Shown piece after piece: positions 38,399 through 62,591 of a stretch of DNA of 64,000 bases (position 1 is its first letter; each line of letters begins with the position of its first letter). The notes below the pieces were generated by a model that saw only the letters and a list, made by a program, of their open reading frames with translations, was not told the DNA's origin and made no database searches. Source of the DNA: Bacillota bacterium. GTDB lineage: Bacteria; Bacillota; Negativicutes; Sporomusales; Sporomusaceae. The position numbers and the translations under genes were made by a program. Where the stretch lies: contig JAGGAB010000014.1 of the NCBI GenBank assembly GCA_017889705.1, positions 16,968-80,967 on the forward strand, in the 5' to 3' direction.

Positions 38399-38466
38399 CT
38401 AAAAAACAAAAGGAGGCAATCGAAGCTGACTCAGCGATCGATTGCCTCCGGTTTTCCGGTCAGCAA
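38399..38466 (-). promoter_or_regulatory. Regulon leader element L1 (before cysK copy 1)
   Basis: Minus strand: TTGCTGA, stem CCGG-aaaa-CCGG, AGGCAATCGA and a terminator closed by TCGATTGCCTCC with T-run. The bases TTGCT can pair with GGCAA, the 5' arm of the terminator, giving an alternative antiterminator. A strong promoter precedes it: TTGACA (38513-38518) and TAGTAT (38490-38495), 17 bases apart. The stem is CCGG/CCGG here where other copies have TCAG/CTGA, a compensatory change. Confidence 0.85.
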
Positions 38467-38532
38467 GGAAATATTTACATCGTGTTTTTATACTAGCACG
38501 AATATATTTACCTGTCAACCAAAATTTCTAAA

Positions 38533-39702
38533 TTATAGTTTTGGAGTAATTTTTTCCTTAAACAATTGCTTGCCGTCTTTCATTTCCAGAACAACAGCAC
38601 TCTTAATCGGATTATGGTTGGCATCAATTGTCATCATGCCTGTGCTTAATTGCAAGTTTTTAGTTTGTTCTAGCGCCTCACGGATTTTTTCAGGTTCAGT
38701 GCTGTTTGCCCGTTTAATTGCGTCAATCAGAAGCAAACCGGCATCATAGCCAAGAGCCGAGAAAACGCTAGGTTCTTGATTGTATTCTTTCTTATAGGCT
38801 TCAATGAATTTAACCACATTAGGATCAGTATCTTGAGACGAATAATGGCTGCTGAAATAGGTATTATTCAGCGGAGCTGCTCCGGCGATTTCTACTACTT
38901 TCGCATCATCCCAGCCATCAGTTCCAAGGAACGGCATATTCATACCCATTTCGCGGGCTTGCTTAACGATTTTGCCAACTTCTTCATAATAAGCCGGTAA
39001 GAATACGACATCCGGATTCATAGCTTTAATCTTGGTAAGGGTGGATTTAAAGTCTTGATCTTTTTGCAGGAAAGCTTCCTGACCTAAAATTTTACCACCG
39101 TTTTTGGTAAATACTTCAGTAAAAGATTGGGCAAGACCTTTAGAATAGTCGGAACTGCTGTCAATATAAATAGCTGCGGTTTTCACTTTCAGGGTATTGC
39201 TGGCGAAATTAGCCATGATTGTACCTTGAAGCGGATCGATAAAACAGGATCTAAATGCATAAGGACGGGTTTTGCCATTATCAACGGTAATCTTTTCACT
39301 GGTACCGGTTGGGGTAATTACCGGAATTTTGTTATCTTGTGATACTTGTAGGGTTGCAATTGTATTGGAGCTTGTTGCCGGACCAAATACGGCTACAACC
39401 TTGTCCTGGGTAATTAATTTCGTAATTGCATTGGTAGCCTCAGCGGCCTCTGACTTGTTGTCAGCCAATACTAATTTGATTTGTTTACCCAAAACACCGC
39501 CAGATGCATTAGCTTGCTTAATAGCCAGTTGAATACCGTTAACTGCTTGTTTACCGTAGTTGGCTACGCCACCGGTTAACTCAAAGTTGCCGCCAATTTT
39601 AATTTCATTAGACGCTTCCTGTTTAGCGCCACCGCCACAACCGGCTAATGCGCCAGCCATGAGCAATGTGCTTATCGCTACTGCTAACATTTTTTTACGC
39701 AT
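38533..39702 (-). CDS. Branched-chain amino acid type ABC substrate-binding lipoprotein
   Basis: 389 aa. Signal peptide with lipobox LAGC at residues 19-22, then a type I periplasmic binding fold (IKIGGNFELTGGVANYGKQAVNG, VFGPATSSNTIA). LivJ-like proteins deliver branched-chain amino acids or other small ligands to a Liv-type permease. No permease or ATPase is adjacent, so it either serves a distant transporter or has become a sensor. Confidence 0.92.
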   Translation of the reverse strand: MRKKMLAVAISTLLMAGALAGCGGGAKQEASNEIKIGGNFELTGGVANYGKQAVNGIQLAIKQANASGGVLGKQIKLVLADNKSEAAEATNAITKLITQDKVVAVFGPATSSNTIATLQVSQDNKIPVITPTGTSEKITVDNGKTRPYAFRSCFIDPLQGTIMANFASNTLKVKTAAIYIDSSSDYSKGLAQSFTEVFTKNGGKILGQEAFLQKDQDFKSTLTKIKAMNPDVVFLPAYYEEVGKIVKQAREMGMNMPFLGTDGWDDAKVVEIAGAAPLNNTYFSSHYSSQDTDPNVVKFIEAYKKEYNQEPSVFSALGYDAGLLLIDAIKRANSTEPEKIREALEQTKNLQLSTGMMTIDANHNPIKSAVVLEMKDGKQLFKEKITPKL

Positions 39703-39929
39703 ATTTCTTCAATCCCCTCTTTTTCCCCGTATCAATACACAACTTCTTTCTTACGGTTCCGTTCGCCTGGAGTGTACTGTACTAAGGACTGTACTTTTTC
39801 TACTCTCATTGAATATACACCTTTACACGTTTGTTGTCAATGGACTTTTGCGGGTCTATTTTTAAGAGATTAATGTACGCGATACAAACACATGAAGTTC
39901 TGCATAATTCTTCTTTTTCCTGATAATGT

Positions 39930-39966
39930 AAAAAACTGCGATGAGTCAACGTAGGCTCACCGCAGT
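39930..39966 (-). terminator. Intrinsic terminator after the YezD-like/HydE-like operon
   Basis: CTGCG-TGAG / CTCA-CGCAG hairpin with TTTTTT on the minus strand. Confidence 0.82.
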
Positions 39967-39971
39967 CTATA

Positions 39972-40301
39972 TTAAATTCCGTCACCATTGAGTCCAGTAA
40001 GTTTGCCAACCCGGTATTTTTCGGTTCTTTCAACTTGCATAATCTGGCCTGATTGAATTTGGATAGCCACCTTGCCATACTCCATACCGCTGACAGCCTG
40101 TAAAACCCGTGTCTTACAACTGCCTGCATCAGCCGGCTTATTTACACATTTAGCAGGTTTTTCACCAAAACGGATTTTTTCAAGTTTTTCCATTTGAATA
40201 ATCCGCGCATCCTGCAATACCAAGGTAACCGAGCCAAAACCTATTTCTTTAATGGCTTGTTCAATGAGAGCAAGCACTTCTTCTGTTATATCTTTACTCA
40301 T
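39972..40301 (-). CDS. Tandem YezD (DUF2292) protein, copy 1
   Basis: 109 aa made of two YezD-like units: residues about 10-43 (IKEIGFGSVTLVLQDARIIQ then MEKLEKIRF) and about 66-98 (VSGMEYGKVAIQIQSGQIMQ then VERTEKYRV). Single YezD units of about 55 aa are usually found in sulfur-assimilation operons of Firmicutes; their biochemistry is unknown. It lies 23 bases after the HydE-like radical SAM gene. The linker contains Cys residues (AKCVNKPADAGSCKT). A second, leader-controlled copy is at 43535-43888. Confidence 0.8.
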   Translation of the reverse strand: MSKDITEEVLALIEQAIKEIGFGSVTLVLQDARIIQMEKLEKIRFGEKPAKCVNKPADAGSCKTRVLQAVSGMEYGKVAIQIQSGQIMQVERTEKYRVGKLTGLNGDGI

Positions 40302-41537: not shown

Positions 41538-41680
41538 AACTTATCAAGAGTGGTCGAGGGACTGGCCCTATGACACCCGGCAACCGGCATTTTATGCAAG
41601 GTGCTAAATCCAGCGGAGCAATCCGGAAGATGAGTTATTTGCGCACATAGGCGACTCTTCTTACGGAAGAGTCGTTTTTA
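41538..41680 (+). promoter_or_regulatory. SAM riboswitch (S-box) before the cystathionine synthase/lyase gene
   Basis: AACTTATC ... AGAGTGGTCGAGGGACTGGCC ... ATGACACCCGGCAACC ... GGTGCTAAATCCAGC ... GATGAGTT, then a terminator GCGACTCTTC / GGAAGAGTCG with TTTTTA at 41651-41679. Confidence 0.98.
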
Positions 41681-41705: not shown

Positions 41706-42848
41706 ATGAAAATTTCTACTAAAGCCGTCCAAGCAGGTCTGGTCACTGACAAAACTACCGGTGCCATCAGCACTCCTATCTATCAAACAGCTACCTTTCG
41801 TCATCCCGAACTTGGCCAAAGCACCGGTTATGATTATTCCCGCACACAAAACCCCACCCGCAAAGCAGTTGAAGATGCTTTGGCATCGCTGGAAGAGGGC
41901 CATGCGGGCTTTGCCTTTGCCTCTGGCATGGCTGCAATTACCGCACTGCTTATGCTTTACCGTCCCGGCGATCATCTTATTATTACTGAAGATTGTTATG
42001 GCGGAACTTACCGCCTGCTTGACAAACTATTTATCCAATTTGGCTTATCTGCCACTTTTGTCGACACCAGCGACATTGAAGAGGTACGCCATGCCCTGCA
42101 GCCGTCAACCAAAGCTATTCTCCTGGAAACACCCACTAACCCGCTGATGAAAATTGCCGATATTAAGGCAATAACATCACTGGCCTGTAAAACCACTTCT
42201 CCCATTCATGTCATTGTTGACAACACCTTTCTTTCTCCCTACCTGCAGCGCCCCCTGACACTTGGGGCTGATATTGTCATCCACAGCGGCAGCAAATACT
42301 TGTCCGGCCATAATGATGTGGTCTGCGGCCTGGTAACAGCTAAAGATCCTGCGCTCTGCGAAAAAATCGGCTTTATCCAAAATGCCACCGGCGCTATTCT
42401 CGGCCCACAGGACAGCTGGCTGCTCCTGCGCGGATTGAAAACACTGGCAATCCGCATACGCCAGCAGCAGGAAAATGCGCTGGCTGTTGCCAAGTGGCTT
42501 ACCACTCACCCTAGTGTGACTAAAGTCTATTATCCGGGTCTGACCGACCATCCTGGCAGAGCTATTCAAGAATCCCAAGCCTCAGGCTATGGCGGCATGC
42601 TGTCTTTTGTTGTCGATCATCCCCGTTTGCCGGCCCAGGTATTACGCAAGGTAAAAGTACTGCAGTTCGCAGAAAGCCTTGGTGGTGTAGAGTCACTCAT
42701 TACCTTTCCGTCCGTTCAGACCCATGCCGACATCCCGGCAGATGTACGCGAGCGCTTAGGCATCAGTGATTGTTTGCTGCGTTTGTCTGTTGGCATAGAA
42801 GATGTTGAAGATATTATTGCCGATTTGGCCCAAGCCTTAGAACAATAA
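41706..42848 (+). CDS. Cystathionine gamma-synthase/lyase (trans-sulfuration PLP enzyme)
   Basis: 380 aa. Cys/Met metabolism PLP enzyme: ASGMAAITAL, the ETPTNPL stretch, VDNTFLSPYLQ and PLP-lysine in HSGSKYLSGHNDVV. Length fits MetB/MccB. S-box control argues for the methionine direction (cystathionine gamma-synthase or O-acetylhomoserine sulfhydrylase), consistent with MetX supplying O-acetylhomoserine, but lyase activity cannot be excluded from sequence. Confidence 0.92.
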   Translation: MKISTKAVQAGLVTDKTTGAISTPIYQTATFRHPELGQSTGYDYSRTQNPTRKAVEDALASLEEGHAGFAFASGMAAITALLMLYRPGDHLIITEDCYGGTYRLLDKLFIQFGLSATFVDTSDIEEVRHALQPSTKAILLETPTNPLMKIADIKAITSLACKTTSPIHVIVDNTFLSPYLQRPLTLGADIVIHSGSKYLSGHNDVVCGLVTAKDPALCEKIGFIQNATGAILGPQDSWLLLRGLKTLAIRIRQQQENALAVAKWLTTHPSVTKVYYPGLTDHPGRAIQESQASGYGGMLSFVVDHPRLPAQVLRKVKVLQFAESLGGVESLITFPSVQTHADIPADVRERLGISDCLLRLSVGIEDVEDIIADLAQALEQ

Positions 42849-43534: not shown

Positions 43535-43888
43535 TTAGATACCATCTCCATATGTTCCTTCATATTCATTGATACGGCGTTTTTCAGTTTTTTCTATTTG
43601 TTCGACCTTACCATCTTCAATCCGAATAATCAATTGTCCATACATCAACCCTTTAAGCTGGGCGAGAATTTTGGGCTGAAGCGAGTGTTGTTCTGCCGGA
43701 ATATTATGCATGATATAACCTGATTTGTTTTTCGATGAAAATATGAATTTTTCCGTTCGTTCCATCTTTATTACACAGCCGTCTTGCACTGTCAAGATCA
43801 AATATCCGTACTGGATAGTATGCAGCGAATGCCGGAGTAACTCAATAACTTGCGGCAATAAGTTTCTTTGGGGATGTAGTTTTTCCAT
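43535..43888 (-). CDS. Tandem YezD (DUF2292) protein, copy 2
   Basis: 117 aa from ATG 43888, eight bases after GGAGG. Two YezD-like repeats again: IQYGYLILTVQDGCVIKMER and MYGQLIIRIEDGKVEQIEK, with a linker of about 35 residues. Same architecture as 39972-40301, and both end in GDGI, so the duplication is ancient and shared. First gene after leader L2 and followed by a radical SAM gene, as its paralogue is paired with HydE-like. Confidence 0.8.
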   Translation of the reverse strand: MEKLHPQRNLLPQVIELLRHSLHTIQYGYLILTVQDGCVIKMERTEKFIFSSKNKSGYIMHNIPAEQHSLQPKILAQLKGLMYGQLIIRIEDGKVEQIEKTEKRRINEYEGTYGDGI

Positions 43889-43950
43889 ACATTGCACCTC
43901 CGAACAAATTTTAATATACAACCCATCAGCTAAATAAGCTGCACAAATAC

Positions 43951-44101
43951 GAAAAAGGCTAAGAGACTTTCCATTAAGATAAAATCAAACTTGTCATCCT
44001 TGCTCAAGGTTAACAACAGCCTGATTTTCCTTTTGTACCATTAGAAAAGGTCTAACCTCTAATGATAAAAGTCTCTTAGCCTTCAGTATATCTGATCAGC
44101 T
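43951..44101 (-). promoter_or_regulatory. Regulon leader element L2 (before the YezD-like/radical SAM pair)
   Basis: Minus strand: TTAGCTGA, stem TCAG-atata-CTGA, AGGCTAAGAGACTTT, terminator closed by AAAGTCTCTTAGCC and T-run. TTAGCT can pair with GGCTAA. Unlike other copies the terminator loop is about 80 bases and contains its own CATTAGA/TCTAATG hairpin. I see no strong promoter immediately upstream, so it may act inside the longer transcript from cysK copy 2. Confidence 0.8.
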
Positions 44102-44133
44102 AATGCAATTATTTAATTTACTGAACATCAAGC

Positions 44134-45015
44134 TTATAAAGCTGCAGACGAAGATATGGAGTCAGCTACATTTTGGTTAGCCACTTTGGTTTTGTCTGCT
44201 GTAAAATGTTCATTTTGCAACAGTTCCCATATCTTATGACGAATCCAGCCAAAATCGGCTGATGAACGAATACCATCCCGCGGTCTAGGCAAATTGATAT
44301 CGACAATCTCCTTAATGGTTCCGGGATTTGCCGTCATTACCGCTACCCGGTCTGCCAAAAATACCGCTTCATCAATGCCATGAGTTACAAAAATTATGGT
44401 CTTCTTGGTGGTCTCCCAGATGCGCAGCAATTCTTCCTGCAAGGTTTCCCTGGTCTGCGCGTCCACTGCTGCAAAAGGTTCATCCATAAGTAAAACTTCT
44501 GGATCATACGCTAACGCCCTGGCAATGGCCACACGCTGTTTCATACCGCCAGATAACTCATGCGGATATCGGTCCCCAAAATTTTTCAGTCCGACTAATT
44601 CAAGATATTGCTCACTAATTTCCTGGCGTTCCTTTTGCGGTACTTTTTTGATCTCAAGACCAAATTCAACATTTTTTCTCACTGTTCGCCAGGGAAACAG
44701 CGCATACCCTTGCATTACAATTCCTCTATCCAAGGCTGGGCCGGTTATGGGCTTACCATCCATAAATATTTCGCCAGAACTTGGTTTAGCCAATCCCGCA
44801 ATCATATCCAGAAAAGTGGATTTTCCACAGCCGCTTGGTCCGACAATCGCCAAAAATTCCCCTTGTTTAACCGACAGATCTAGCTTCTTAATGGCCTCGA
44901 ATTCTGTAGCTTCTTCATTTGGGTTGCGTTTAATTTGGTATACACGCCGTATATTGCGGGCAATGATTTTATCATTTGTTCCAGCAACTGCCGTCGCATC
45001 CTGATTGTTGGACAT
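44134..45015 (-). CDS. ABC transporter ATP-binding protein, nitrate/sulfonate/taurine type
   Basis: 293 aa. Walker A GPSGCGKST, signature LSGGMKQR, Walker B VLLMDEPFAAVDA and switch His in VTHGIDEA; the family-typical QGYALFPWRTVRKNV links it to SsuB/TauB/NrtD. The C-terminal 30 residues are an extra low-complexity tail. Permease and binding protein are not encoded nearby. Operon with cysK copy 2, 37 bases after it, which suggests import of an organosulfur compound or sulfate-like anion. Confidence 0.9.
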   Translation of the reverse strand: MSNNQDATAVAGTNDKIIARNIRRVYQIKRNPNEEATEFEAIKKLDLSVKQGEFLAIVGPSGCGKSTFLDMIAGLAKPSSGEIFMDGKPITGPALDRGIVMQGYALFPWRTVRKNVEFGLEIKKVPQKERQEISEQYLELVGLKNFGDRYPHELSGGMKQRVAIARALAYDPEVLLMDEPFAAVDAQTRETLQEELLRIWETTKKTIIFVTHGIDEAVFLADRVAVMTANPGTIKEIVDINLPRPRDGIRSSADFGWIRHKIWELLQNEHFTADKTKVANQNVADSISSSAAL

Positions 45016-45052: not shown

Positions 45053-45982
45053 CTAACTCTCTGAAAAAAGCACGGTACTAAGGTATCGCTCCCCTGTGTC
45101 CGGCAAAATAGCCACTACGACTTTTCCTTTGTTGCTCTGCCGCTTAGCAAGCTGCAAAGCGGCAAAAGTCGCAGCCCCTGATGATATACCTACTAATATA
45201 CCTTCTTCTTTTGCCAACCGCTGCGCGGTAATGAGCGCTTCTTCATTTTTGACTTTAAAGATTTCATCTACAATATCTAAATTCAATACGTTAGGAACAA
45301 AGCCGGCACCAATTCCCTGAATTTTATGCGGTCCCGGCTGACCACCTGAAAGAACGGGAGAATCAAAAGGTTCCACTGCTACCACTTGGATTTTAGGGTT
45401 GCGCTTTTTAAGCACTTCGCCAACACCGGTAATGGTACCGCCTGTACCGACACCACCAACAATAACATCCACCTTACCATCGGTGTCCTGCCAGATCTCC
45501 TCGGCGGTAATAGCCCGGTGAATCGCCGGATTGGCTGGATTATTAAATTGTTGCGGAATAAATGAATTGGGTGTTACAGCCGCTAGTTCCTCTGCCTTTA
45601 GAACAGCACCTTTCATACCTGCAGCTCCCGGAGTCAACACTAATTCCGCCCCATACGCTTTTAACAGACTGCGTCGTTCCACACTCATGGTCTCCGGCAT
45701 GGTCAGAATTAATCGATAGCCTTTTGCCGCGGCAATATAGGCCAGAGCAATACCGGTATTGCCGCTGGTAGGCTCAATAATTACCGTATCCTTATTAATA
45801 AGTCCTTTTTCCTCGGCATCTTTGATCATACTAAAACCAATACGGTCTTTAATGCTTCCTCCCGGGTTAAACGACTCGAGTTTGACCACTACCTCAGCCT
45901 GATTATCTTCAGCAACTTTATTCAGGCGGAGTAAAGGTGTACTGCCGATCAATGCAGTTATACTGTTGGCAATCTTAGCCAT
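45053..45982 (-). CDS. cysK: Cysteine synthase A, copy 2
   Basis: 309 aa. Same motifs as copy 1 ([11 protein letters not shown] with the PLP lysine, [31 protein letters not shown]). Behind leader L3 and a consensus promoter, followed by the sulfonate-type ABC ATPase. Having two CysK copies in one regulon suggests that sulfide or a thiol is handled at high flux when the system is on; differing substrate preference is possible. Confidence 0.96.
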
Positions 45983-46032: not shown

Positions 46033-46093
46033 CAGAAAGGCTAAGGCATATCCTCGCGGAAATACCTTAGCCTTCAGTCTTTCTGATCAGCTA
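46033..46093 (-). promoter_or_regulatory. Regulon leader element L3 (before cysK copy 2)
   Basis: Minus strand: TTAGCTGA, stem TCAG-aaaga-CTGA, AGGCTAAGGTAT, terminator closed by ATGCCTTAGCC and T-rich tail. TTAGCT pairs with GGCTAA as alternative. Promoter TTGACA (46141-46146) and TATAAT (46119-46124), 16 bases apart. Confidence 0.88.
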
Positions 46094-46163
46094 ACCACTA
46101 CTATTCCTAATAACTACAATTATACTTATAGGGAAATATTTGTCAATCTGCTTTTCTTGCTAG

Positions 46164-47444
46164 TTACAGGGCCTGTCGGCGTGACAGTTCCTCTATCTGG
46201 GTAGCTGTATACCGGAGACCAGTTTCTACGGTATCGCAGTATTCCGAAATATAAATTCCCTTTTTCCCTAACTGTTCTTTTGCATGATATCCGATACGCA
46301 TAGTCAATACTGCATTACAATCCTGTAATGCTTCCAGAATTTTATCCCGTCCGCAATCTTCCCCTGTGTCACATTCGGTCATGCCGGCACAATACTGATT
46401 TACAGTCCTAGTTTCACGGAGTTCAAATTCCTTCCCATCACCCTGGTAAATAAGCAATTGCGTAGCATGGCCGAAATGCTGATCAACCAGTTTTCCATGC
46501 TTCGATGTCACGGCAATTTGATAGACTTTACTAGTTTCAGTTTTCGGCACCATACTCTCAGTTATGCGGTTGCACATACGAAATTCCTGGGAACGGTCTT
46601 GACCCAGCAAACCAATGGCATCGGCCCGGCATTGCTGGCAGTGACGCATTTGCTGAATATCCAGTTGACACACATCCCGCAGTGCATTGAGTTCCTTCAT
46701 GCTGGTTTGGGGCAGATGTTCAAAAGCACTGCCTGAAGCAGGAATAAGCGGCATAATATTAGTGACAAAGACCCCTAATTCTTTTACCTTTTTGACAACG
46801 GCCGGTATATGGCTGTCATTAATTCCTTTAATCATGACAATATTGATCTTGACTAAAATACCATGTTTTACCAGGTACTCAATGCCGGCTAGCTGATTGA
46901 CTAACAGCAGTTCTGCCGCTTGAACACCCTCATAGCGTTTTCCTTGGTAGGTCACAAATTTATAGATTTTTGCCCCAATAACCGGATCTAGTGTATTAAC
47001 GGTCACAGTAACATGCTTGATACCTAAAGCAACAATTTCGTGAGCGTATTGGGGCAACAGCAATCCATTTGTTGATAAACAAAAAATAATATCAGGGTTG
47101 ACGGCTTTTATATTCTCGATTGTCTTTTTGGTCAGCGGCCAGTCGGCAAGGGCATCTCCCGGCCCGGCAATACCAACAACACTAAGGTTTTCAATTTCTT
47201 CTTTCACCCATATAAATTTGTCCCGTGCAAAATCTGGTGTCAGCACCTCACTCGTGACACCAGGACGGCTCTCGTTTACGCAGTCAAACTTCCGGTTGCA
47301 ATAATTGCATTGAATATTGCACCGGGGAGCTACCGGCAAGTGCATCCGGGCATATTTATGATGAGCATCTGCAGAATAGCAGGGATGTTGGTTGGTTTTT
47401 TCCAAAACATCAGCACTCATCGTACCCGAGCATACGCAACCCAT
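46164..47444 (-). CDS. NifB-like radical SAM protein with C-terminal NifX-type domain
   Basis: 426 aa from ATG 47444 behind GAGAGGTG. HPCYSADAHHKYARMHLPVA precedes the radical SAM motif CNIQCNYC (Cys 42, 46, 49), the exact NifB arrangement, then CVNESRPGV. Residues about 310-415 form a dinitrogenase-cofactor (NifX/NafY-like) domain (AVTSKHGKLVDQHFGHA). NifB makes the carbide-containing [8Fe-9S-C] precursor of nitrogenase cofactors. It follows the NifH-like gene by 106 bases under leader L4. Together with NifD-like and NifH-like it implies a complex Fe-S-carbide cofactor is built here. Confidence 0.92.
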   Translation of the reverse strand: MGCVCSGTMSADVLEKTNQHPCYSADAHHKYARMHLPVAPRCNIQCNYCNRKFDCVNESRPGVTSEVLTPDFARDKFIWVKEEIENLSVVGIAGPGDALADWPLTKKTIENIKAVNPDIIFCLSTNGLLLPQYAHEIVALGIKHVTVTVNTLDPVIGAKIYKFVTYQGKRYEGVQAAELLLVNQLAGIEYLVKHGILVKINIVMIKGINDSHIPAVVKKVKELGVFVTNIMPLIPASGSAFEHLPQTSMKELNALRDVCQLDIQQMRHCQQCRADAIGLLGQDRSQEFRMCNRITESMVPKTETSKVYQIAVTSKHGKLVDQHFGHATQLLIYQGDGKEFELRETRTVNQYCAGMTECDTGEDCGRDKILEALQDCNAVLTMRIGYHAKEQLGKKGIYISEYCDTVETGLRYTATQIEELSRRQAL

Positions 47445-47550
47445 ACTGTTCACCTCTCTTTTTTGCCCAAGGGCTGGCACAAGCCATGTCTTGCTTATAT
47501 TGTATTTTGGGCAATAAGCCTAGGAACGAGCTTTACTGCAGAAAATTCAC

Positions 47551-48455: not shown

Positions 48456-48522
48456 ACAAAAAGGCCAGAATCGCAGTTCCGGAGAACTGTTATTCTGACC
48501 TTCGGTTCATAACCAATCAGTC
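48456..48522 (-). promoter_or_regulatory. Regulon leader element L4 (before nifH-like)
   Basis: Minus strand: GACTGA, stem TTGGTT-atg-AACCGA, AGGTCAGAAT, terminator closed by ATTCTGGCC and T-run. Alternative helix GACT/GGTC replaces GCT/GGC of other copies, and the inner stem is changed on both sides, the best single case of covariation. Promoter TTGTAA (48570-48575) and TATAAT (48547-48552), 17 bases apart. Confidence 0.85.
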
Positions 48523-48668
48523 TATTATTTTTTAAACTTGTAATCTATTATAGCGAGCAAATTCTAAAATTACAAGACACTTGAAGAAATTTTTATGAAT
48601 TTATTTCCTTTCTTGACAACATTCCTTATGAATGATAGCCTATAAGCATATAATTATTAACTTTAATT

Positions 48669-48730
48669 TAGCTGATCAGAATGCCTGAAGGCTAAGTCCG
48701 TCTAAGTTTGACGTACTTTAGCCTTTTTTC
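48669..48730 (+). promoter_or_regulatory. Regulon leader element L5 (before patB-like)
   Basis: TTAGCTGA, stem TCAG-aatgc-CTGA, AGGCTAAGTCCGTC, terminator closed by GACGTACTTTAGCC and TTTTTT. TTAGCT pairs with GGCTAA. A TATAAT at 48649-48654 has TTATGA 17 bases upstream; TTGACA at 48613-48618 is further away. Confidence 0.88.
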
Positions 48731-50775: not shown

Positions 50776-50874
50776 ATCATTCTTCTCCTTCAATTTATTT
50801 TTTACCGTTTAACTCCGTGTACTATACCAACAATTCACCTCCTTAAAACCATCACCAAATCTGACTAGTTTTAA

Positions 50875-50942
50875 AAAAGTAAAAGGCCGGAAATACCCTC
50901 TTCAGGATATATCCAGCCTTTAGTTTTTTATCTAATCAGCTA
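50875..50942 (-). promoter_or_regulatory. Regulon leader element L6 (before the rhodanese-like gene)
   Basis: Minus strand: TAGCTGA, stem TTAG-ataaaaaa-CTAA, AGGCTGGATAT, terminator closed by ATTTCCGGCC and TTTTA. TAGCT pairs with GGCTG. Consensus promoter TTGACA (50984-50989), 17-base spacer, TATAAT (50961-50966). Confidence 0.88.
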
Positions 50943-51006
50943 CGATATTATTTTTCACCCATTATAATTGGGATGAAAATCTTTGTCAATATCCTCCATT
51001 TTTCTG

Positions 51007-52492: not shown

Positions 52493-52748
52493 AAAATCAC
52501 CCCAAAAACTCTGGTCCTCACATTTCAACGTCCAGTGCACAACATATCATTTTGAATAATGTAATCGCAAACAGAAAGTTTGTCAACCATATGCTGGAAT
52601 ATTTCCCTCATCACAGCCTCCTAATTCTCGCTTGTACACAATAGTACTTTTATCCAAAATAATAGTACTTTTGGACAGTAGACACTAACAATAGCCCCTG
52701 TGGTATTATAAATATACAATTTAACCCGGTTATTTCGGTTATGTTCAT

Positions 52749-52815
52749 TCTGGTTGATTAGTTAAAAACTAAAGGCCGGATTTGTCTAAAGACAAATCCG
52801 GCCTTTTATTTTTTC
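52749..52815 (+). promoter_or_regulatory. Regulon leader element L7 (before the TonB-dependent receptor)
   Basis: CTGGTTGA, stem TTAG-ttaaaaa-CTAA, AGGCCGGATTTGTC, terminator closed by GACAAATCCGGCC and TTTTATTTTTT. CTGGTT can pair with GGCCGG; here the outer helix differs from TTAGCT/GGCTAA in both strands. Confidence 0.88.
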
Positions 52816-52889: not shown

Positions 52890-54851
52890 ATGAACAAAAC
52901 ATCTACGTTTATATTTTCTTTATTGCTTCTGGTAGCCACAGCAACACATGAAACAGTTGCTCTGGCTGCCGAAGAAGAAAAAAAAGAAGCTAAGGAACCC
53001 TTCACGGTTGAAGAAACGGTAGTAACCGCCCCGGCAGTGACCGATACGCTGACTGTTGAAACAGATCCCAAATTACCCCGTCAGCCTGTTCCAGCCAATG
53101 ACGGCGGCGGCTATCTGAAAAATATTCCGGGGTTTTCTGCAGTACGAAAAGGCGGTTCAGGCACAGACCCCACCTTTCGGGGGCTGGGCGGAACACGCCT
53201 CAATATTTTACTTGACGGCACTTACCTGCAGGGGGGCTGCGGCGGGCGAATGGATCCACCTACGGCCTATATTTTTCCCGAATCGTACAGTAAGATTACC
53301 GTATTGAAAGGCCCGGAGACTGTACTATATGGTGGTGGCAATATTGCAGGAACCGTACTATTTGAACGGAGTACCCCTCGTTTTGAAAAACCTGAGGTAC
53401 GAGTGAACACCAGCTTACTAACAGGCAGTTACGGCCGGAATGATGAACTTTTAGACGTGACAGCCGGCGATACTAAAGGTTATGTAAGAATTATCAGATC
53501 TCGCTCTCATGCAGATGATTATACAGACGGCAGCGACAACAAATATCATTCTTTTTACACCCGCAACAGCCTAACCGCTATATTAGGATATACGCCTGAC
53601 ACTAATACACTGTACGAATTTACGGTAGATAATAGCACTGCCCAGGCCGCCTACGCCGACCGCATGATGGATGGCAGTAAATTCGACCGCAATGATTATA
53701 GTTTTAAATTTGAAAAAAATAATCTCTCCCCTCATCTTAACCGCATTTCTTTTAGTGCCTACCACAACTATATCGACCATGTTATGGATAATTACTCATT
53801 GCGCACAAGCAATATGAAAAGTGCCAGCAACCCTGACCGTACCACCACTGGTGCGAGGCTGGCGGCTGATTTAACACTTAACGCGCACACTACCGCAACC
53901 GTCGGCCTCGATTACCAAAAAAATAAACATACCACCCGCAGCGGTGCAAATTATCAATCAGCCGCCCGTATACCAGATATGACTTTTGAAAACTATGGCA
54001 TCTTCGGCGACTTCAATCATAGTATCAATCCGCACTCACGCCTAAAAAGCGGCGTAAGGGTTGATTTTCTTGATGTAAAAAATCAAAAAACCTCTGACAG
54101 TGACAATAATACAACCTACGGCGCTTTCGTAAGGTATGAGCATGACTTAAAAAACGCGCCGATAACAGCTTATGTAGGGCTTGGGCATGCCGAGCGGCCA
54201 GCCGACTGGTGGGAAAGAAACAGATCATTTTCACTGAAACCCGAAAAAAACACCCAGCTTGACACCGGTCTGATTTACCATTCCGGCAAACTAAAAACCA
54301 GCCTGTCACTGTTCTACTCCAAAATTAACGACTTCATCCTGCTTACGAATAAAAACACCTCCGCCACCAATGTAAATGCCACACTCTATGGCGGTGAAGC
54401 AGAAGCTACTTATTCATTATCCGACAATTGGAAGGCTATCGCCACGTTAGCCTATACACGCGGCAATAACGATACCACCGGCGGTTCCTTGCCACAAATC
54501 GCTCCTTTAGAAGGTACGCTGAGCCTAAACTATACCAAAGATAAATTTGGCGCCGGCCTCCTCTGGCGGTGCGTTGCCGCTCAAAACCACGTTTCATTAA
54601 ATAACGGCAATGAGATGGGCTATGACCTTGGTCCCTCGGCCGGGTTTGGCACTCTGTCTGCCAATTTGTCTTATCATCCTACCAAGAACCTGCTTATCAG
54701 CGCCGGCGTAGACAATTTGTTTGATAAAACCTATGCCGAATATATCAGCAAGTCGACAAGTTCATCTATGGCCAATTTAGGTTTACCTGTTACATTCCGG
54801 ATAAATGAACCTGGGCGCACCTTCTGGCTGAAAACCAGCTATAGTTTCTAA
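52890..54851 (+). CDS. TonB-dependent outer membrane receptor, OprC/NosA copper-receptor type
   Basis: 653 aa with signal peptide, plug domain and 22-strand barrel ending in aromatic Phe (TSYSF). The plug contains GGCGGRMDPPTAYIFPES, typical of the TonB-dependent copper receptor family. In OprC copper is bound by CxxxM and HxM; here these are Cys117-Met121 and His297-Met299 (DHVMD). The region also has the TonB-box-like VEETVVTA near residue 40. Its own exbB, exbD and tonB follow. Copper uptake is the best-supported function; import of another soft-metal or thioether ligand is an alternative. Confidence 0.88.
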   Translation: MNKTSTFIFSLLLLVATATHETVALAAEEEKKEAKEPFTVEETVVTAPAVTDTLTVETDPKLPRQPVPANDGGGYLKNIPGFSAVRKGGSGTDPTFRGLGGTRLNILLDGTYLQGGCGGRMDPPTAYIFPESYSKITVLKGPETVLYGGGNIAGTVLFERSTPRFEKPEVRVNTSLLTGSYGRNDELLDVTAGDTKGYVRIIRSRSHADDYTDGSDNKYHSFYTRNSLTAILGYTPDTNTLYEFTVDNSTAQAAYADRMMDGSKFDRNDYSFKFEKNNLSPHLNRISFSAYHNYIDHVMDNYSLRTSNMKSASNPDRTTTGARLAADLTLNAHTTATVGLDYQKNKHTTRSGANYQSAARIPDMTFENYGIFGDFNHSINPHSRLKSGVRVDFLDVKNQKTSDSDNNTTYGAFVRYEHDLKNAPITAYVGLGHAERPADWWERNRSFSLKPEKNTQLDTGLIYHSGKLKTSLSLFYSKINDFILLTNKNTSATNVNATLYGGEAEATYSLSDNWKAIATLAYTRGNNDTTGGSLPQIAPLEGTLSLNYTKDKFGAGLLWRCVAAQNHVSLNNGNEMGYDLGPSAGFGTLSANLSYHPTKNLLISAGVDNLFDKTYAEYISKSTSSSMANLGLPVTFRINEPGRTFWLKTSYSF

Positions 54852-56677: not shown

Positions 56678-56731
56678 ACCTACTTTACAAATACCAAGAC
56701 ATTTGTTATACTATAACCAATTAAATACTAA

Positions 56732-56788
56732 TGCTGATTAGAAAAACTAAAGGCTTTAACGCGGTACATACTGCGTTAAAGCCTTTGC
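56732..56788 (+). promoter_or_regulatory. Regulon leader element L8 (before the hydrolase gene)
   Basis: GCTGA, stem TTAG-aaaaa-CTAA, AGGCTTTAACGC, hairpin closed by GCGTTAAAGCC. The T-run after it is short (TTTGCATATT), and the hairpin ends close to the ribosome binding site. Promoter TTTACA (56684-56689), 17 bases, TATACT (56707-56712). Confidence 0.82.
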
Positions 56789-56810: not shown

Positions 56811-57611
56811 ATGAAACAACACACCTGGATACCAAGTCAAGGTCGCAAGCTTTCGGCTATGATTCAAGCCCATAGCTTTACCTTAACACAAACTCCAATC
56901 GTCATCTGCTGCCACGGCTTTACCAGTGAAAAGGTCGGTTCCAATCAGCTAAACCTACATGTGGCCAATGCTATTGAAGCTGCCGGACTTATTGCTCTTC
57001 GTTTTGACTTTACCGGGTCAGGAGAAAGCGAAGGGGATTTTGCTGCTGATACAACCATCAAAAACTGGCGGGAGGATCTGCAAAGTGTAGTCCAATGGGT
57101 TAAGAACATCCCGGAATTTGAAAATTTGCCTGTGTATTTATTGGGTCACAGCTTAGGTGGTTTAATCGTGCTTAGCCATAATGATACCGGTATTGCCGGT
57201 CGGATAGCCTTAGCCCCGGTTACCCAGCCTATTGATAATTTTCAAAATATCATTTTAGGACCGGATTTATGGCAAAACTCGCTTAACGGTCAAACTGTTG
57301 CCAACTTTTTAGATAAGGGCTTTAGCCTTAGTCCTAACTTTGTCCAAGATTTACTGGAAAACCGCTATGATCCGTTAACACTGGTTCAGTCGCACCGTAC
57401 ACCGCTGTTTGTTGTTCATGGCGACCAGGACATTGTTGTGCCGTCATCCGGCTCAGATATTTTATATGACCGTTACCCAGGCGAAAAAGAGATTGCCCGC
57501 ATCCAGGCCGACCATGTATTTACAAACAAACATGATGAGCTTACCGCACTGGTAACCGCATGGTTAGTTAAACAAAAAAAACAATGGTTCCCCATGTGTC
57601 ACGCCCATTAA
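56811..57611 (+). CDS. Alpha/beta hydrolase (serine esterase-like)
   Basis: 266 aa behind AAGGGGG. Oxyanion motif CCHGFTSEK, nucleophile elbow GHSLGGLIV, acid Asp in HGDQDIVVP and catalytic His in ADHVFTNK: a complete triad. Cytosolic (no signal peptide). Substrate unknown; its presence in the regulon hints at ester or thioester hydrolysis of an imported compound. Confidence 0.88.
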   Translation: MKQHTWIPSQGRKLSAMIQAHSFTLTQTPIVICCHGFTSEKVGSNQLNLHVANAIEAAGLIALRFDFTGSGESEGDFAADTTIKNWREDLQSVVQWVKNIPEFENLPVYLLGHSLGGLIVLSHNDTGIAGRIALAPVTQPIDNFQNIILGPDLWQNSLNGQTVANFLDKGFSLSPNFVQDLLENRYDPLTLVQSHRTPLFVVHGDQDIVVPSSGSDILYDRYPGEKEIARIQADHVFTNKHDELTALVTAWLVKQKKQWFPMCHAH

Positions 57612-57666: not shown

Positions 57667-58335
57667 TTACTGGCATGCCACCATTTGTAGTGTCCCTGCC
57701 TCCAGTCGAAAAATTTCATCTGCTTGTGCTGCCAAACCTACGTCATGAGTAACAATAACTACGCCTGCTCCATCCCGCCGCGCTTGTAGCAGGCATTGGG
57801 CAACTTCCTCAGCCAAGGCTGGATCTAAATCATTAGTAGGTTCGTCAGCCAATAAAATAGCGGGTTTTAATAAAAGTGCTCTTGCCAGTGAAATCCGTCG
57901 CAATTGGCCAAGACTTAGCTCTTGCGGTTTATGATGTAAACGATGTGACAAACCGAATTGTTCTAATAAAGCTTTTGCCTGCTGCTCCACATTTTCCCCG
58001 TTGCGGATAAACCATGCCGGTGCCATTACGTTTTCCAAGGCAGTCAATGAATTGATTAAACGAGCTCTCTGAAATACAAAGCTCAAATACTGGCCACGCA
58101 GCTTAGCCATACTACGGGAATCGTAGCTATCTATCTCCTGACCATCTATTAATACTTGCCCTGAGGTGGCTTTTTGCAATAGCCCCATTATTGATAGCAA
58201 GGTAGTTTTTCCACCGCCGGAGTGTCCCACAATGGCTATCGCCGTTCCTCTGTTTAAAGTAAATGATATATTGGATAAAATGACATCATCGCCATAACGC
58301 TTGCCTATATTTTTCAATTCCAGCAAATCGCTCAT
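57667..58335 (-). CDS. ABC transporter ATP-binding protein, MacB/LolD type
   Basis: 222 aa. Walker A VGHSGGGKTT, signature LSLGQLRRIS, Walker B AILLADEPTNDLDP, His in VTHDVGLA. Pairs with the FtsX-type permease encoded 15 bases upstream. Such transporters drive lipoprotein or small-molecule export by a mechanotransmission mode; the pair belongs to the unit behind leader L9. Confidence 0.92.
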   Translation of the reverse strand: MSDLLELKNIGKRYGDDVILSNISFTLNRGTAIAIVGHSGGGKTTLLSIMGLLQKATSGQVLIDGQEIDSYDSRSMAKLRGQYLSFVFQRARLINSLTALENVMAPAWFIRNGENVEQQAKALLEQFGLSHRLHHKPQELSLGQLRRISLARALLLKPAILLADEPTNDLDPALAEEVAQCLLQARRDGAGVVIVTHDVGLAAQADEIFRLEAGTLQMVACQ

Positions 58336-58350: not shown

Positions 58351-59550
58351 TTAATCAAATTCGCCTCTAGTCATAATAACACTGGGATCAATTTTACTGC
58401 CTTTATAGGCTGGCAGCCAGGCAGCCAAGGCTCCCAAGCCGGTGAATACTACGATAACGCCCAAAGCGGTACCGCCTAAAAAACTCCAGGTTGGCGCCAC
58501 AAAAGGAAACGACTGAAACTCTCCTAATAGCGCCAGACTTGCTTTATACAGACCGCTCCCTAACAGCAGCCCGGCAACTGAACCTGTCAGCGATACAATT
58601 GCCGCTTCCCCGACAATAACTGCACCGATATCCCGGCCGGAAGCTCCAAAGGCCAGGTAAAGGCCCCATTCAGCCTGCCGCTCCCAGGTCAGCGTATAAA
58701 ACCGGGAAAAAAGGTGCAGCAGTGAAGTAATGACTGTCAATAAACCAACACCACCAATTAAAAGCGCAAATACGGTAAATTGATCGGCTATCCGTTTTTT
58801 TACTTCAGCCGCAACAATGGGTTTCATAAGCCCGACATTTTGAATACCTGCCACTACATTATTAACATTTGCGTTTTCATCAACCTGCACTAAAATAGTT
58901 GATATGAGTTCAGACGGCTGACCTTGTTTTTTCCATATTTCTTTTAGCGAATTATCTTTCGCCACTACCCGCCTAGCTTCATTCATACTGACCAGCAATG
59001 AATAATCCAGCGTTGTCCCTGTTTCTTCCGCTATGGTGACAATATTGTACCATTTGCCCAAAATGGATATTTTGTTTTCTGTCCAAGTGGGTACTTTCGC
59101 ACCTAAAATAACTTCATCATCAGCAAGTTCTGTTTTATGCACTTTTTTCAGCCAGGGAGCTATAATCCAGTCACTAGTCGGATCATAACCAATCATCCGG
59201 TTTTGCGACCCAATATCATGGCAATCTGCCGTTAGGGAATGAGTGTAAAACTGCGGAGTAACAGTACGGACCCCCTGAATATTGCGAATGCCCTCCACAT
59301 ATGTTTCTGGCATATAGGAATTTGCCGTTGCCCCGCCAAATAAGAGCAAGCTGGGCTCTAGTGTCACTCCATAAGGCACAACAACGATATCTGCCCCCAT
59401 ACGCTTCTTCGAAAGTTCCATACCTGAGGCAACCCCGTTGTATAAAGCTGCAATACCAAAGACTATAGCTACGCCGACAGCAATAGACACAATTATGGCT
59501 ATACTTTGTAATCGTCGGTGCAGCAAACTCTTCCAAATAAGAAAAATCAT
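58351..59550 (-). CDS. FtsX/MacB-type ABC transporter permease
   Basis: 399 aa. N-terminal membrane span (SIAIIVSIAVGVAIVFGIA), a large periplasmic domain (residues about 40-260) containing the MacB-like core, and three C-terminal spans (FALLIGGVGLLTVITSLLHLF). Together with the ATPase it resembles MacB or LolCDE. Periplasmic substrate unknown; may handle a metallophore, lipoprotein or metal. Confidence 0.9.
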   Translation of the reverse strand: MIFLIWKSLLHRRLQSIAIIVSIAVGVAIVFGIAALYNGVASGMELSKKRMGADIVVVPYGVTLEPSLLLFGGATANSYMPETYVEGIRNIQGVRTVTPQFYTHSLTADCHDIGSQNRMIGYDPTSDWIIAPWLKKVHKTELADDEVILGAKVPTWTENKISILGKWYNIVTIAEETGTTLDYSLLVSMNEARRVVAKDNSLKEIWKKQGQPSELISTILVQVDENANVNNVVAGIQNVGLMKPIVAAEVKKRIADQFTVFALLIGGVGLLTVITSLLHLFSRFYTLTWERQAEWGLYLAFGASGRDIGAVIVGEAAIVSLTGSVAGLLLGSGLYKASLALLGEFQSFPFVAPTWSFLGGTALGVIVVFTGLGALAAWLPAYKGSKIDPSVIMTRGEFD

Positions 59551-59584: not shown

Positions 59585-59652
59585 AAAAAACCTGATTTCC
59601 CCCTGTCTTCCCAACAGGTGAAAACCAAGCCTCCAGTACATCTGGTCAACCT
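59585..59652 (-). promoter_or_regulatory. Regulon leader element L9 (before the MacB-like transporter)
   Basis: Minus strand: CAAGGTTGA, stem CCAG-atgta-CTGG, AGGCTTGGTTT, then a terminator ending AAATCAGGTTTTTT. CAAG..TT can pair with GGCTTG. TTGACA at 59698-59703 with a poor -10 17 bases later lies in the end of the NifK-like gene. Confidence 0.75.
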
Positions 59653-59676
59653 TGATAAACACTCTACTATTGTTAA

Positions 59677-60777
59677 TTACCTACTGCCGATAATGGCTGT
59701 CAATATATCGTTGGCAAGATGAAGCCCACCGCGATATCCGGAATATCCCTGGTCAGTAATGACCCGGTTAGTTATTGGATAGCTGACACTCAAGAAGCCC
59801 GCCTTTAAATCAGCAGCCAAATCGCGATCATAGGTACTGCCTAGAACAAACAGCGGGCTAACTGCCAAACCATAATCGCCACTTTCTTCAGTCAACTGCT
59901 TCTGCAATTTAGCTGCAATTTCACTGGTATCGGTTTCAAAAATAAGTGTAGGCCTTAGTTCCTGCTTGATGTCAGTAAAGCGCTGCCGTAGTTTGGCTTG
60001 CTCAATTTCATCAAGAGTATCGGTTATGGCAACAAAATAAGGAATCCAGCCAAAATCATCAGCTAAGAATTTAGTCAGAGCATAGCTGTAGTTTGCGTCC
60101 CCAATAATCACTGCAAACCGCTGCAAGTCCATATCATTATATATTTCGGCAACATTCTGCAGAAATCCGAAATATCTTGTTTTTTCCGCTTGCAATACTT
60201 GTTTTAGCTTCTCTTGGTCAATTTCAATATGCCGGGCTACTTCCAATAAAAATTCCTTTGTAGCTGTCGGCCCAATCGGCAATGGAATATTTACATAAGG
60301 AATACCATGCACTTCTTCAAAAACGTTAGCAGCCTCAGTACCATAGATATCTGATAATACAATGTTTAACACTGATTGCGAAGATTTTTTTATAGAATCC
60401 AAATCATCAAAAGGAGTAACAAAGGCATTGACCTGAATACCAAGTTCAGAAAAGATCCGTTTTAATTCCAGCAAATTTCCCCGCCAAAAAACATCCAACG
60501 CAGGTACCAGTCCTAACAAATTAATTTGCTTAGGTATTGTAGGCAAACCCTTCTCCACATACTGTGTGATTAAGGCACTCATGATAATGTCATATCCCTT
60601 ATAAGAATTACCTTTGAATCCGCCGGTTTCTGCCACAATAATAGAGCTTTTTGCTGTTTGAAATTCTTTGGCGACTGAAGAGACGTCATCACCAATAATC
60701 TCTGTCATACATCCTGTAATTACGGCAAATAAATCGGCATCAACTACGGCTAACGTACCTGCAATCTGTTCAGTCAA
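59677..60777 (-). CDS. NifK-like protein lacking the N-terminal domain
   Basis: 366 aa from TTG 60777; a stop codon lies four codons upstream in frame. The sequence is a nitrogenase beta-like chain from TGCMTEIIGDDV (third P-cluster Cys region) onward, with PYVNIPLPIGPTATKEFL and the C-terminal fold. The first about 100 residues, which hold the other two P-cluster cysteines, are absent. A strong ribosome binding site serves a 9-codon frame that ends eight bases inside this gene (60770-60799). Either an internal deletion made it a pseudogene, or it is a truncated protein started by coupled translation. Behind leader L10. Confidence 0.72.
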   Translation of the reverse strand: MTEQIAGTLAVVDADLFAVITGCMTEIIGDDVSSVAKEFQTAKSSIIVAETGGFKGNSYKGYDIIMSALITQYVEKGLPTIPKQINLLGLVPALDVFWRGNLLELKRIFSELGIQVNAFVTPFDDLDSIKKSSQSVLNIVLSDIYGTEAANVFEEVHGIPYVNIPLPIGPTATKEFLLEVARHIEIDQEKLKQVLQAEKTRYFGFLQNVAEIYNDMDLQRFAVIIGDANYSYALTKFLADDFGWIPYFVAITDTLDEIEQAKLRQRFTDIKQELRPTLIFETDTSEIAAKLQKQLTEESGDYGLAVSPLFVLGSTYDRDLAADLKAGFLSVSYPITNRVITDQGYSGYRGGLHLANDILTAIIGSR

Positions 60778-60827: not shown

Positions 60828-60890
60828 AAAAATCAAAAAGAGGCTGCGTCCCTTATCGGGTCACAGCCTCTAGTTTTACAACCAGTCAGC
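60828..60890 (-). promoter_or_regulatory. Regulon leader element L10 (before nifK-like)
   Basis: Minus strand: TGCTGA, stem CTGGTT-gta-AACTAG, AGGCTGTGACCC, terminator closed by GGGACGCAGCC and TTTTT. Promoter TTGACA (60927-60932), 17 bases, TATAAT (60904-60909); its -35 lies on the opposite strand of the -35 of L11. Confidence 0.85.
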
Positions 60891-60963
60891 AAATTTCAAT
60901 TAAATTATATATTAGGCTCAAGCTATTGTCAATATATTGTAATAAGCATTATACTATTATCAT

Positions 60964-61034
60964 CAGCTGATCAGCCAAAAACTGAAGGCAAAGCTTTCTG
61001 CTATAACAGAAAGCCTTGCCTTTAGTTTTTTTAT
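60964..61034 (+). promoter_or_regulatory. Regulon leader element L11 (before the MFS transporter)
   Basis: GCTGA, stem TCAG-ccaaaaa-CTGA, AGGCAAAGCTTTC, terminator closed by GAAAGCCTTGCC and TTTAGTTTTTTT. The outer helix is limited to GCT/GGC here. Promoter TTGTCA (60926-60931), 18 bases, TATACT (60950-60955). Confidence 0.86.
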
Positions 61035-61068
61035 ATCCAATGACAAATAAGAACCGGAGGCAGTAGCT

Positions 61069-62343
61069 ATGACTTTTTTTACAACAAGCAGCAAAGGCCA
61101 AAAACCCATAAATTCAAACAAGCGCTTTCACTATAGCTGGATTATCCTATTAGTAACATTTTTAGCGTTAATACTTGCAGCAGGTATCCGCTCCACACCG
61201 GGAGTACTCATTATTCCATTTGAGCATTATTTTGGCTGGAGTCGGTCTGCCATCAGCTTTGCTCTGGCAATTAATCTGCTGCTTTACGGCCTTTGCGGCC
61301 CTTTTGCCGGAGCTTTACTGGAATTGTACGGAACCCGGCAAACTATGGCCATGGCTTTGGGATTGATAGCAGTCGGAGCTGCGCTGTCATCCCAGATGAA
61401 CGCCACCTGGCATTTGATGGTACTATGGGGAGTTGTCATCGGCACTGGAAGTGGCTTTTTTTCACCGGTATTAGGGACAGTGGTTGCTAACCGCTGGTTT
61501 AGCAAACGCCGTGGTTTGGTCATCGGCATATTTAGTGCGGCAGGCTCAGCCGGACAGCTCATCTTTTTGCCACTTTTTTCGAAACTTCTTGAAATATATA
61601 CTTGGCAAATAGTGACTTGGTTTATAGCCTACTCCGCTATCGCTGTTATGATAATTGTCTGCCTGCTAATGCGAAATCATCCCCGTGATATTGGTTTATT
61701 ACCCTATGGTGCCAGCCAAGCGGCAAGTGCTGATCACCCCGAAAAAAATGGTTCTATTTCCGTAGTAATTACTGTCTTTAAGCAGGCTGTAACTAATAGA
61801 GATTTCTGGTTACTGACAGGCAGTTTCGTTGTTTGTGGCATTACCTCTAGCGGCCTGATCGGCACACATTTTATTCCGGCTTGCGCCGATCATGGGATAT
61901 CGGAGATTAGCGCTGCAGGCATGTTGTCCATATCGGGAATTTTCAACCTGCTGGGTGCTATGGCTGCCGGTTGGCTTTCAGACAAATTTGATAATCGCTG
62001 GCTATTATTCTGGTTTTATATGCTGCGCGGAGTAACGCTTGCCTGGCTGCCTTTCACTTTGGCTTCCGACACTTATAATTTAGCACTCTTTATTGTCTTT
62101 TACGGTTTAGATTGGGTGGCAACTGTGCCGCCGACAGTACGGCTAACTACCGACATTTTTGGCAAACAGAGCAGTATTGTTTTTGGCTGGATGATGATTT
62201 TCCATCAAGCCGGTGCTGCCCTTGCCGCTTATTCCGGCGGCGCTCTGCATACTCTGCTTGGCAGCTACCAATTGGCTTTTATCTCAGGCGGAGTACTCTG
62301 CTTACTTGCCTGCGGGCTTGTTATTAAAATTCGCCGAATATAA
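61069..62343 (+). CDS. MFS transporter (oxalate/formate antiporter or monocarboxylate-like group)
   Basis: 424 aa with twelve membrane spans. Features of the group: GWSRSAISFALAINLLLYG near residue 60, a GTGSGFFSPVLGTVVANRWF stretch near 130 and RRGLVIG after the fourth span, FDNRWL in the middle loop. Substrate likely a small carboxylate; behind leader L11 and divergent from the NifK-like gene. Confidence 0.9.
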   Translation: MTFFTTSSKGQKPINSNKRFHYSWIILLVTFLALILAAGIRSTPGVLIIPFEHYFGWSRSAISFALAINLLLYGLCGPFAGALLELYGTRQTMAMALGLIAVGAALSSQMNATWHLMVLWGVVIGTGSGFFSPVLGTVVANRWFSKRRGLVIGIFSAAGSAGQLIFLPLFSKLLEIYTWQIVTWFIAYSAIAVMIIVCLLMRNHPRDIGLLPYGASQAASADHPEKNGSISVVITVFKQAVTNRDFWLLTGSFVVCGITSSGLIGTHFIPACADHGISEISAAGMLSISGIFNLLGAMAAGWLSDKFDNRWLLFWFYMLRGVTLAWLPFTLASDTYNLALFIVFYGLDWVATVPPTVRLTTDIFGKQSSIVFGWMMIFHQAGAALAAYSGGALHTLLGSYQLAFISGGVLCLLACGLVIKIRRI

Positions 62344-62524
62344 GCTTTATGACATTCGTCGGATAAAATTCACTTTATTTACACAAGATTTTCTCCAAGC
62401 TATATTTATTCCAGATTCTCCATTGACATTTCCAATATTAGTGTAGTACTATTATTTCAAAATCATTTGCGGGTGCATTACGAACTTTTTTTGATGCAAC
62501 CCATGGTTCATACATAGTAAAATT

Positions 62525-62591
62525 AGCTGATCATTAAAAGATTGAAGGCTAAGGATATTTTAAAATGTCCTTAGTTTTCGGTCTTTTTTTA
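62525..62591 (+). promoter_or_regulatory. Regulon leader element L12 (before nifD-like)
   Basis: TTAGCTGA, stem TCAT-taaaaga-TTGA (three pairs), AGGCTAAGGA, terminator CTAAGGA / TCCTTAG with TTTTCGGTCTTTTTTT. TTAGCT can pair with GGCTAA. TTGACA with TACTAT 18 bases downstream lies about 90 bases before it (62426-62455). Confidence 0.82.

Follow-up and report, generated by a model that had tools for sequence, protein, structure and literature searches.

The 64,000-nt stretch of DNA analyzed here (the window) belongs to a Bacillota bacterium of the Sporomusaceae (GCA_017889705.1, contig JAGGAB010000014.1, positions 16,968-80,967 of the forward strand). It carries twelve copies of a leader RNA element, located in front of cysteine synthase, nitrogenase-like, transporter and other genes, as well as two genes for proteins with a doubled DUF2292 domain, and the possible relationship between the two is the subject of this analysis. 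The element consists of one RNA hairpin per leader, formed by a helix P1 (for example TTAGCT paired with GGCTAA), an internal loop with GA on the 5' side and A on the 3' side, a second helix P2, which has 4 bp in most copies (for instance TCAG/CTGA, TTAG/CTAA or CCGG/CCGG), and a short loop on top. The 3' strand of the hairpin, comprising its P2 and P1 halves, also forms the 5' arm of what is predicted to be an intrinsic terminator, so that only one of the two structures can exist at a time. The features are listed below; unless otherwise stated, each element was supported by the covariance model, by RNAfold and by the structure-only scan.

38441..38475, minus strand: element 1, before cysK (37395-38339, minus strand; TIGR01139)
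39972..40301, minus strand: double-DUF2292 protein of 109 amino acids (two stretches matching PF10055, E=2.5e-27); no element detected ahead of the gene; candidate antiterminator acting in trans
43535..43921, minus strand: second double-DUF2292 protein (two stretches matching PF10055, E=4.7e-18), encoded downstream of element 2; candidate antiterminator regulating its own gene
44076..44111, minus strand: element 2, before the double-DUF2292 gene 43535-43921 (minus strand); its terminator carries a long insert
46067..46102, minus strand: element 3, before cysK (45053-45982, minus strand) and an ATP-binding cassette (ABC) ATPase gene (44134-45015, minus strand)
48495..48532, minus strand: element 4, before nifH-like (47551-48426, minus strand) and nifB-like (46164-47480, minus strand) genes
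48660..48695, plus strand: element 5, before a PatB-type carbon-sulfur lyase gene (48783-49967, plus strand)
50913..50951, minus strand: element 6, before a rhodanese-domain gene (50281-50793, minus strand)
52742..52779, plus strand: element 7, before a TonB-dependent receptor gene (52890-54851, plus strand) and TolQ/ExbD/TonB-like genes
56722..56757, plus strand: element 8, before an alpha/beta-hydrolase-like gene (56811-57611, plus strand; family matches weak only)
59626..59661, minus strand: element 9, before MacB/FtsX permease (58351-59550, minus strand) and LolD-like ATPase (57667-58335, minus strand) genes
60863..60901, minus strand: element 10, before a nitrogenase component-1-like gene (59677-60777, minus strand)
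60955..60992, plus strand: element 11, before a major facilitator superfamily (MFS) transporter gene (61069-62343, plus strand); covariance model and structure-only scan, not the RNAfold minimum-energy fold
62515..62552, plus strand: element 12, with a P2 of 3 bp, before a nitrogenase component-1-like gene (62775 onward, plus strand); covariance model and RNAfold

All twelve elements reported in a first-pass annotation of this DNA were found in place, each in sense orientation to the next gene. A covariance model built from the twelve copies returned exactly these twelve in the window at E<=1, recovering its own seeds by construction, and gave zero matches in the first 38 kb. A structure-only scan of both strands of the 64 kb, requiring a 3-bp P1, GA, a 4-bp P2, a loop, A, the second P1 strand and an overlapping terminator with a T-run while leaving all other bases free, recovered 11 of the 12 elements without any further match; the one missed, at 62515, has a P2 of only 3 bp. 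Both searches thus agree with the earlier remark that the first 38 kb are free of the element. The P1/P2 hairpin was the minimum-energy fold of RNAfold in all window copies except that at 60955, and in the copy at 59626 the loop A was paired rather than unpaired. Regarding the promoters that had been assigned to most copies at a distance of 20-40 bases, a consensus-like promoter (hexamers matching at 9 or more of 12 positions in the roughly 100 nt upstream, counted without a shuffled control) was present in 11 of 12. For 62515 and 44076 the best site lies more than 60 nt away, and at 44076 it scores only 8 of 12.

The twelve copies are part of a larger set, as the source genome (G000) carries 36 copies in total. 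Of the 24 that lie outside the window, contig C130 has 19, and the remaining 5 are spread over four contigs. A match inside a coding sequence (L034:872) was excluded from this count. The genes downstream of the 36 copies are mostly related to cysteine and methionine, sulfur uptake and nitrogenase-like enzymes, so that the sulfur/nitrogenase-like regulon postulated earlier is borne out for most of its members. They include cysteine synthases, O-acetylhomoserine sulfhydrylase-like, rhodanese and corrinoid methyltransferase-like genes, ABC transporters of the cystine, sulfonate and methionine types, and several nitrogenase-like component-1 genes; outside the window, gene names reflect our reading of the sequences, the family search there having covered DUF2325 only. 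The set also comprises the TonB-dependent receptor, the hydrolase-like gene and the MFS transporter. Some leaders of the source genome contain two elements in series. Contig C130 (L033-L037) represents an island of approximately 90 kb rich in sulfur genes, in which the translations indicate many nitrogenase-like component-1 genes, often near transporter genes, along with corrinoid methyltransferase-like genes.

A terminator was located in 35 of the 36 copies, and for 32 of these 35 the prediction makes it the more stable of the two structures (mean -19.7 kcal/mol, versus -8.1 kcal/mol for the antiterminator). For the three exceptions the script halted at a 3' arm merely 6-9 nt off, and the full fold of the window copy at 48660 is a long hairpin. 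In the alignment of the 36 own copies 89.4% of the cells were paired and 52 cells were changed on both sides, compared with 18.9 in shuffles, while in that of 81 matches from other genomes 90.2% were paired and 123 cells were changed on both sides, compared with 40.9; none of 500 shuffles reached the observed value in either case, it being noted that fitting both alignments to a model biases them towards the structure and that related sequences inflate the double-change counts. When the register was slid, the paired cells dropped to about 56% or less in both alignments. Among the 81 foreign matches the P1 pair adjoining the internal loop is U.G in 75, GA occupies the 5' side of that loop in 75 as well, and all 81 have the A on the 3' side. 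The stem covariation described in the first-pass annotation therefore extends to both helices and persists in other genomes, and the terminator/antiterminator architecture with compensatory changes likewise holds in sequence. The curated covariance models of Rfam matched none of the elements at gathering score, with only weak, chance-level overlaps at E<=5, so that a known class was not matched. We are confident to a very high degree that the RNA element exists and that it marks a genuine, largely sulfur-related regulon, and we regard antitermination as its likely mechanism. Rfam models did detect S-adenosylmethionine (SAM) riboswitches in the window at 35120-35227 (minus strand) and 41538-41636 (plus strand), the latter directly before a cystathionine gamma-synthase/lyase-like gene (41706-42848, plus strand), and hence two attenuator classes share this region; two cobalamin riboswitches are also present (2815-3020 and 5761-5962, minus strand).

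Beyond the source genome, the element was detected in 41 of 60 relatives with covariance model R1 under strict filters, a count to be read with the reservations that the 5' strand of R1 is one column off register and that the matches were only partly inspected singly; model R2 and the 36-copy covariation use the corrected register. Sixteen loci with the exact pattern belong to Sporomusa, Pelosinus, Anaerospora, Clostridium luticellarii, Clostridiaceae BL-3, a Pelotomaculum metagenome-assembled genome and other Bacillota metagenome-assembled genomes. The genus of the window is probably Sporomusa, since in G004, which belongs to that genus, the element coordinates coincide with those on a contig of S. 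acidovorans. In a phylum sample of 299 genomes R2 matched 21 under strict filters, of which 16 were judged genuine: G112, G169, G241 and G353 were set aside as coding-sequence matches before the search for DUF2292, and G340, where a terminator was not seen, after it. The element is thus frequent in relatives up to class level and scattered across the phylum. In one genome (G044, locus L056) it precedes what reads as a gene for a LoaP/NusG paralog.

Missed in the first-pass annotation was a candidate partner that may bind the RNA, DUF2292, for which the window has two genes. Both proteins exceed the Pfam cut-off for this family (PF10055; YezD/OscA) in two stretches each, and that at 43535-43921 also matched the OscA model below the model's own cut-off. 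AlphaFold predicted two alpha-beta-beta units for the 39972-40301 protein (predicted local distance difference test, pLDDT, 72.7; predicted template modelling score, pTM, 0.60) and one such unit for a single-domain DUF2292 protein (pLDDT 71.7, pTM 0.43). In Pseudomonas, oscA and sbp are reported to form one transcription unit and OscA is placed in sulfur starvation and the chromate response; inactivation of oscA reportedly rendered Pseudomonas corrugata chromate-sensitive, which was linked to sulfate starvation (passages citing Viti 2009), and oscA and sbp are reported to fall together upon deletion of PA2504 in P. aeruginosa (PMC8466066). Neither this RNA nor a molecular function for DUF2292/YezD/OscA was found described in the literature covered, which was largely without subscription journals. 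An unnamed attenuator ahead of a sulfonate transporter in bacilli, mentioned in a passage of PMC2965389, could be related to this element.

DUF2292 was found in 40 of the 41 element-positive relatives versus 3 of the 19 element-negative ones (Fisher p=1e-10, uncorrected for relatedness), and the sole element-positive relative without it is a genome only 58% complete. One genus contains members with element and DUF2292 together (G020, G023 and G025) as well as members with neither, namely G013 and G027 (87% complete); a second genus is split in the same way between G058, with both, and G048, with neither. In the phylum sample DUF2292 occurs in 15 of the 16 genuine carriers versus 51 of 299 genomes overall (p=6e-12), or in 15 of 21 when all raw matches are counted (p=1e-8). 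The same comparison bears on DUF2325, a 95-amino-acid protein whose gene often has one or two elements in its own leader and which might itself be the antiterminator. Of 30 DUF2325 loci, 16 have an element in the 700 nt preceding the gene (9 have two), and DUF2325 is present at E<=0.001 in 34 of the 41 element-positive relatives. However, it occurs in only 5 of the 16 phylum-sample carriers and is absent from the other 11, including G104 with its 10 elements, and we consider such a role for DUF2325 highly improbable. DUF2325 frequently belongs to the regulon, in many cases downstream of a tandem pair of elements (L110 of G304, L033:14866-15150 and many relatives); the source genome has a second paralog (C30) without an element.

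Physical linkage provides further evidence for DUF2292. Among 52 DUF2292 loci (40 fetched by coordinate and 12 returned by search), 22, two prophage or viral loci among them, show an element of this architecture no more than 330 nt downstream of the DUF2292 stop codon, with 0.30 expected from shuffles; P2 measures 4 bp in 17 of the 22 and only 3 bp in 5. Elsewhere in these loci, 10 of 664 segments scored as background, a count taken without inspecting them singly; some of the loci hold further model matches. In four loci the strict scan placed the start of the element within 10 nt of the stop codon. According to our reading of the sequences, the linked elements stand before sat, cysK, cysH, ssuC-like and other genes. 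Several of the linked genomes had counted as element-negative when whole genomes were searched under strict filters, and 31 of the 51 DUF2292-positive genomes of the sample have an element once near-gene model matches (E<=0.016, filters off; 13 genomes) and the structural scan alone (3 genomes) are added. In the relatives, at least 18 of 64 DUF2292 genes have an element within 450 nt on the same strand, an undercount since only 136 elements were listed. At one locus (L227, G301 C9:590062) DUF2292 has His for the usual Gln (IHEG) and is followed by a GA/A-loop hairpin with a TTC/GAA P1; protein and target may have co-changed there.

Similar arrangements are found in phage and viral loci. Genome G166 has distant DUF2292-like proteins with variant hairpins in two loci. 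One of these is on a contig of 38,728 bp, and an IMG/VR contig has exactly this length and the identical sequence at the gene (L258, L274); PHROG matches among the neighbours comprise a Holliday junction resolvase (L257) and a phage transcription regulator (L258). On a second IMG/VR contig (L271), a DUF2292-like gene is followed by a single small gene, next by an element and finally by a gene that we read as sigma-like. Phage late-gene antiterminators are usually located at such a place, and DUF2292-like proteins with variant hairpins before likely phage regulators (L274, L257, L258, L271) possibly constitute a phage antitermination switch. These loci are also relevant to a small-molecule riboswitch, in which the 30-nt hairpin would bind a sulfur metabolite such as O-acetylserine that stabilises the antiterminator, DUF2292 being merely a frequent member of the regulon. 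The conserved GA/A internal loop and U.G pair would suit such a switch, and element 2 does place a DUF2292 gene within the regulon. Nevertheless, the conserved bases are few for an aptamer, the alignments have no conserved upstream domain, co-occurrence with DUF2292 is near-obligate and the linkage persists in prophage and viral loci, making a riboswitch unlikely in our opinion.

We believe it probable, judging from sequence comparison, that DUF2292 binds the covarying hairpin, blocks the predicted terminator and switches on sulfur-acquisition genes when sulfur is short, DUF2292 being the best-supported candidate for the protein. That DUF2292 binds RNA, that its control is positive and that it responds to sulfur are what we infer here; that the signal is sulfur or cysteine limitation is a guess from the gene content and the OscA passages. 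In the proposed mechanism transcription of an unbound leader would terminate by default, because the terminator is predicted to be the more stable structure, whereas a DUF2292 dimer or a fused double-DUF2292 protein would hold the hairpin, relieve the terminator and allow read-through. Both placements of the DUF2292 gene, before and behind the element, occur. Ahead of the element, the gene would escape attenuation and its product could be made first without relief; behind it, as for 43535-43921, positive feedback would make the response self-amplifying. Alternatively, DUF2292 could bind the hairpin but act in the opposite direction, or on RNA stability or translation rather than termination. 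Sequence alone does not fix the direction of control, but the hairpin 3' strand is the terminator 5' arm, so that a held hairpin excludes the terminator, and the chromate sensitivity of the oscA mutant with its link to sulfate starvation also argues against this; we judge it very unlikely.

A number of observations weigh against antitermination by DUF2292. One copy of the source genome (C130 69004) has no located terminator, and the two outer P1 pairs are formed in only about 60% of copies. The AlphaFold models of DUF2292 are only middling in confidence, and comparison of the double-domain model with solved structures gave no informative match. The genuine carrier G244 has no DUF2292 match, its element lying 548 nt from the contig start. 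Two of the four viral loci (L272, L273) showed no element, the L273 contig ending about 190 nt behind the gene. Closeness of DUF2292 and element is partly expected within dense sulfur islands, and part of the co-occurrence could reflect shared biology, given that DUF2292 is itself a sulfur gene. Finally, no element was found in 20 of the 51 DUF2292-positive sampled genomes, searched near the gene only and with the G280 locus left out, or at four plasmid DUF2292 loci (Priestia, Paenibacillus and two Novosphingobium, that is, Bacilli and Alphaproteobacteria). The latter two results would also fit a different RNA-binding protein as antiterminator, with DUF2292 co-occurring since both serve sulfur metabolism. 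On the other hand, the DUF2292 stop codon and the element are linked in cis in unrelated operons and in prophage and viral loci, DUF2325 is missing from most phylum-sample carriers as mentioned above, and CAT_RBD (PF03123, E<=0.01) was not found in the source genome or eight other genomes of the same genus (one 58% complete), in line with the first-pass annotation, which had seen no BglG-type protein. We therefore give another protein little chance. CAT_RBD is present in 14 of the 60 relatives.

More broadly, DUF2292/YezD/OscA may represent a new family of very small RNA-binding antiterminators acting on GA/A-loop hairpin attenuators, which would govern multi-operon sulfur regulons across Bacillota and an early-to-late switch in phages, with proteobacterial OscA working by the same principle; we put this forward tentatively, as somewhat short of an even prospect. 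If true, a function would be provided for an uncharacterised protein family known mainly from sulfur starvation, a new RNA-protein pair would be added to the few known local antitermination systems, and it would be explained how Sporomusa-type anaerobes coordinate dozens of sulfur-scavenging operons, many nitrogenase-like enzymes included. An antiterminator of about 50 residues with a target of about 30 nt would also make a compact genetic tool.

Compared with known systems, the element shares with the S-box (SAM) and the cysteine T-box the terminator-based control of sulfur genes in Bacillota, as described in PMC2940859, but unlike these it matches no Rfam model. OscA/YezD proteins are described as small proteins of sulfur starvation; RNA antitermination by them is a proposal of this work, a molecular function not having been found in the papers located. 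The ANTAR antiterminators (EutV, NasR, AmiR) exert protein-dependent local antitermination of several leaders, as is proposed here for DUF2292. Each of their targets comprises a pair of hairpins whose hexanucleotide loops show conservation at positions 1 and 4 (passages of PMC3369931), whereas here there is a single hairpin with variable loops of mostly 4-5 nt and the conserved bases lie in the internal loop. The resemblance pointed out in the first-pass annotation, that to the ribonucleic antiterminator (RAT) sites of BglG/SacY, stands as far as the overlap of hairpin and terminator is concerned. The RAT hairpin has an asymmetric internal loop. In the relevant passages of PMC9981650, the BglG/SacY/LicT target is a hairpin of about 30 nt whose foot overlaps the terminator, the two being mutually exclusive, and the antiterminator gene can sit in the regulated operon, as in nagY-nagE, both of which have counterparts here. 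The present system differs in its GA/A loop, its TGA..AGG signature, its sulfur rather than sugar genes and its candidate protein DUF2292. The element would thus work like a BglG/SacY RAT but is not a member of that class.

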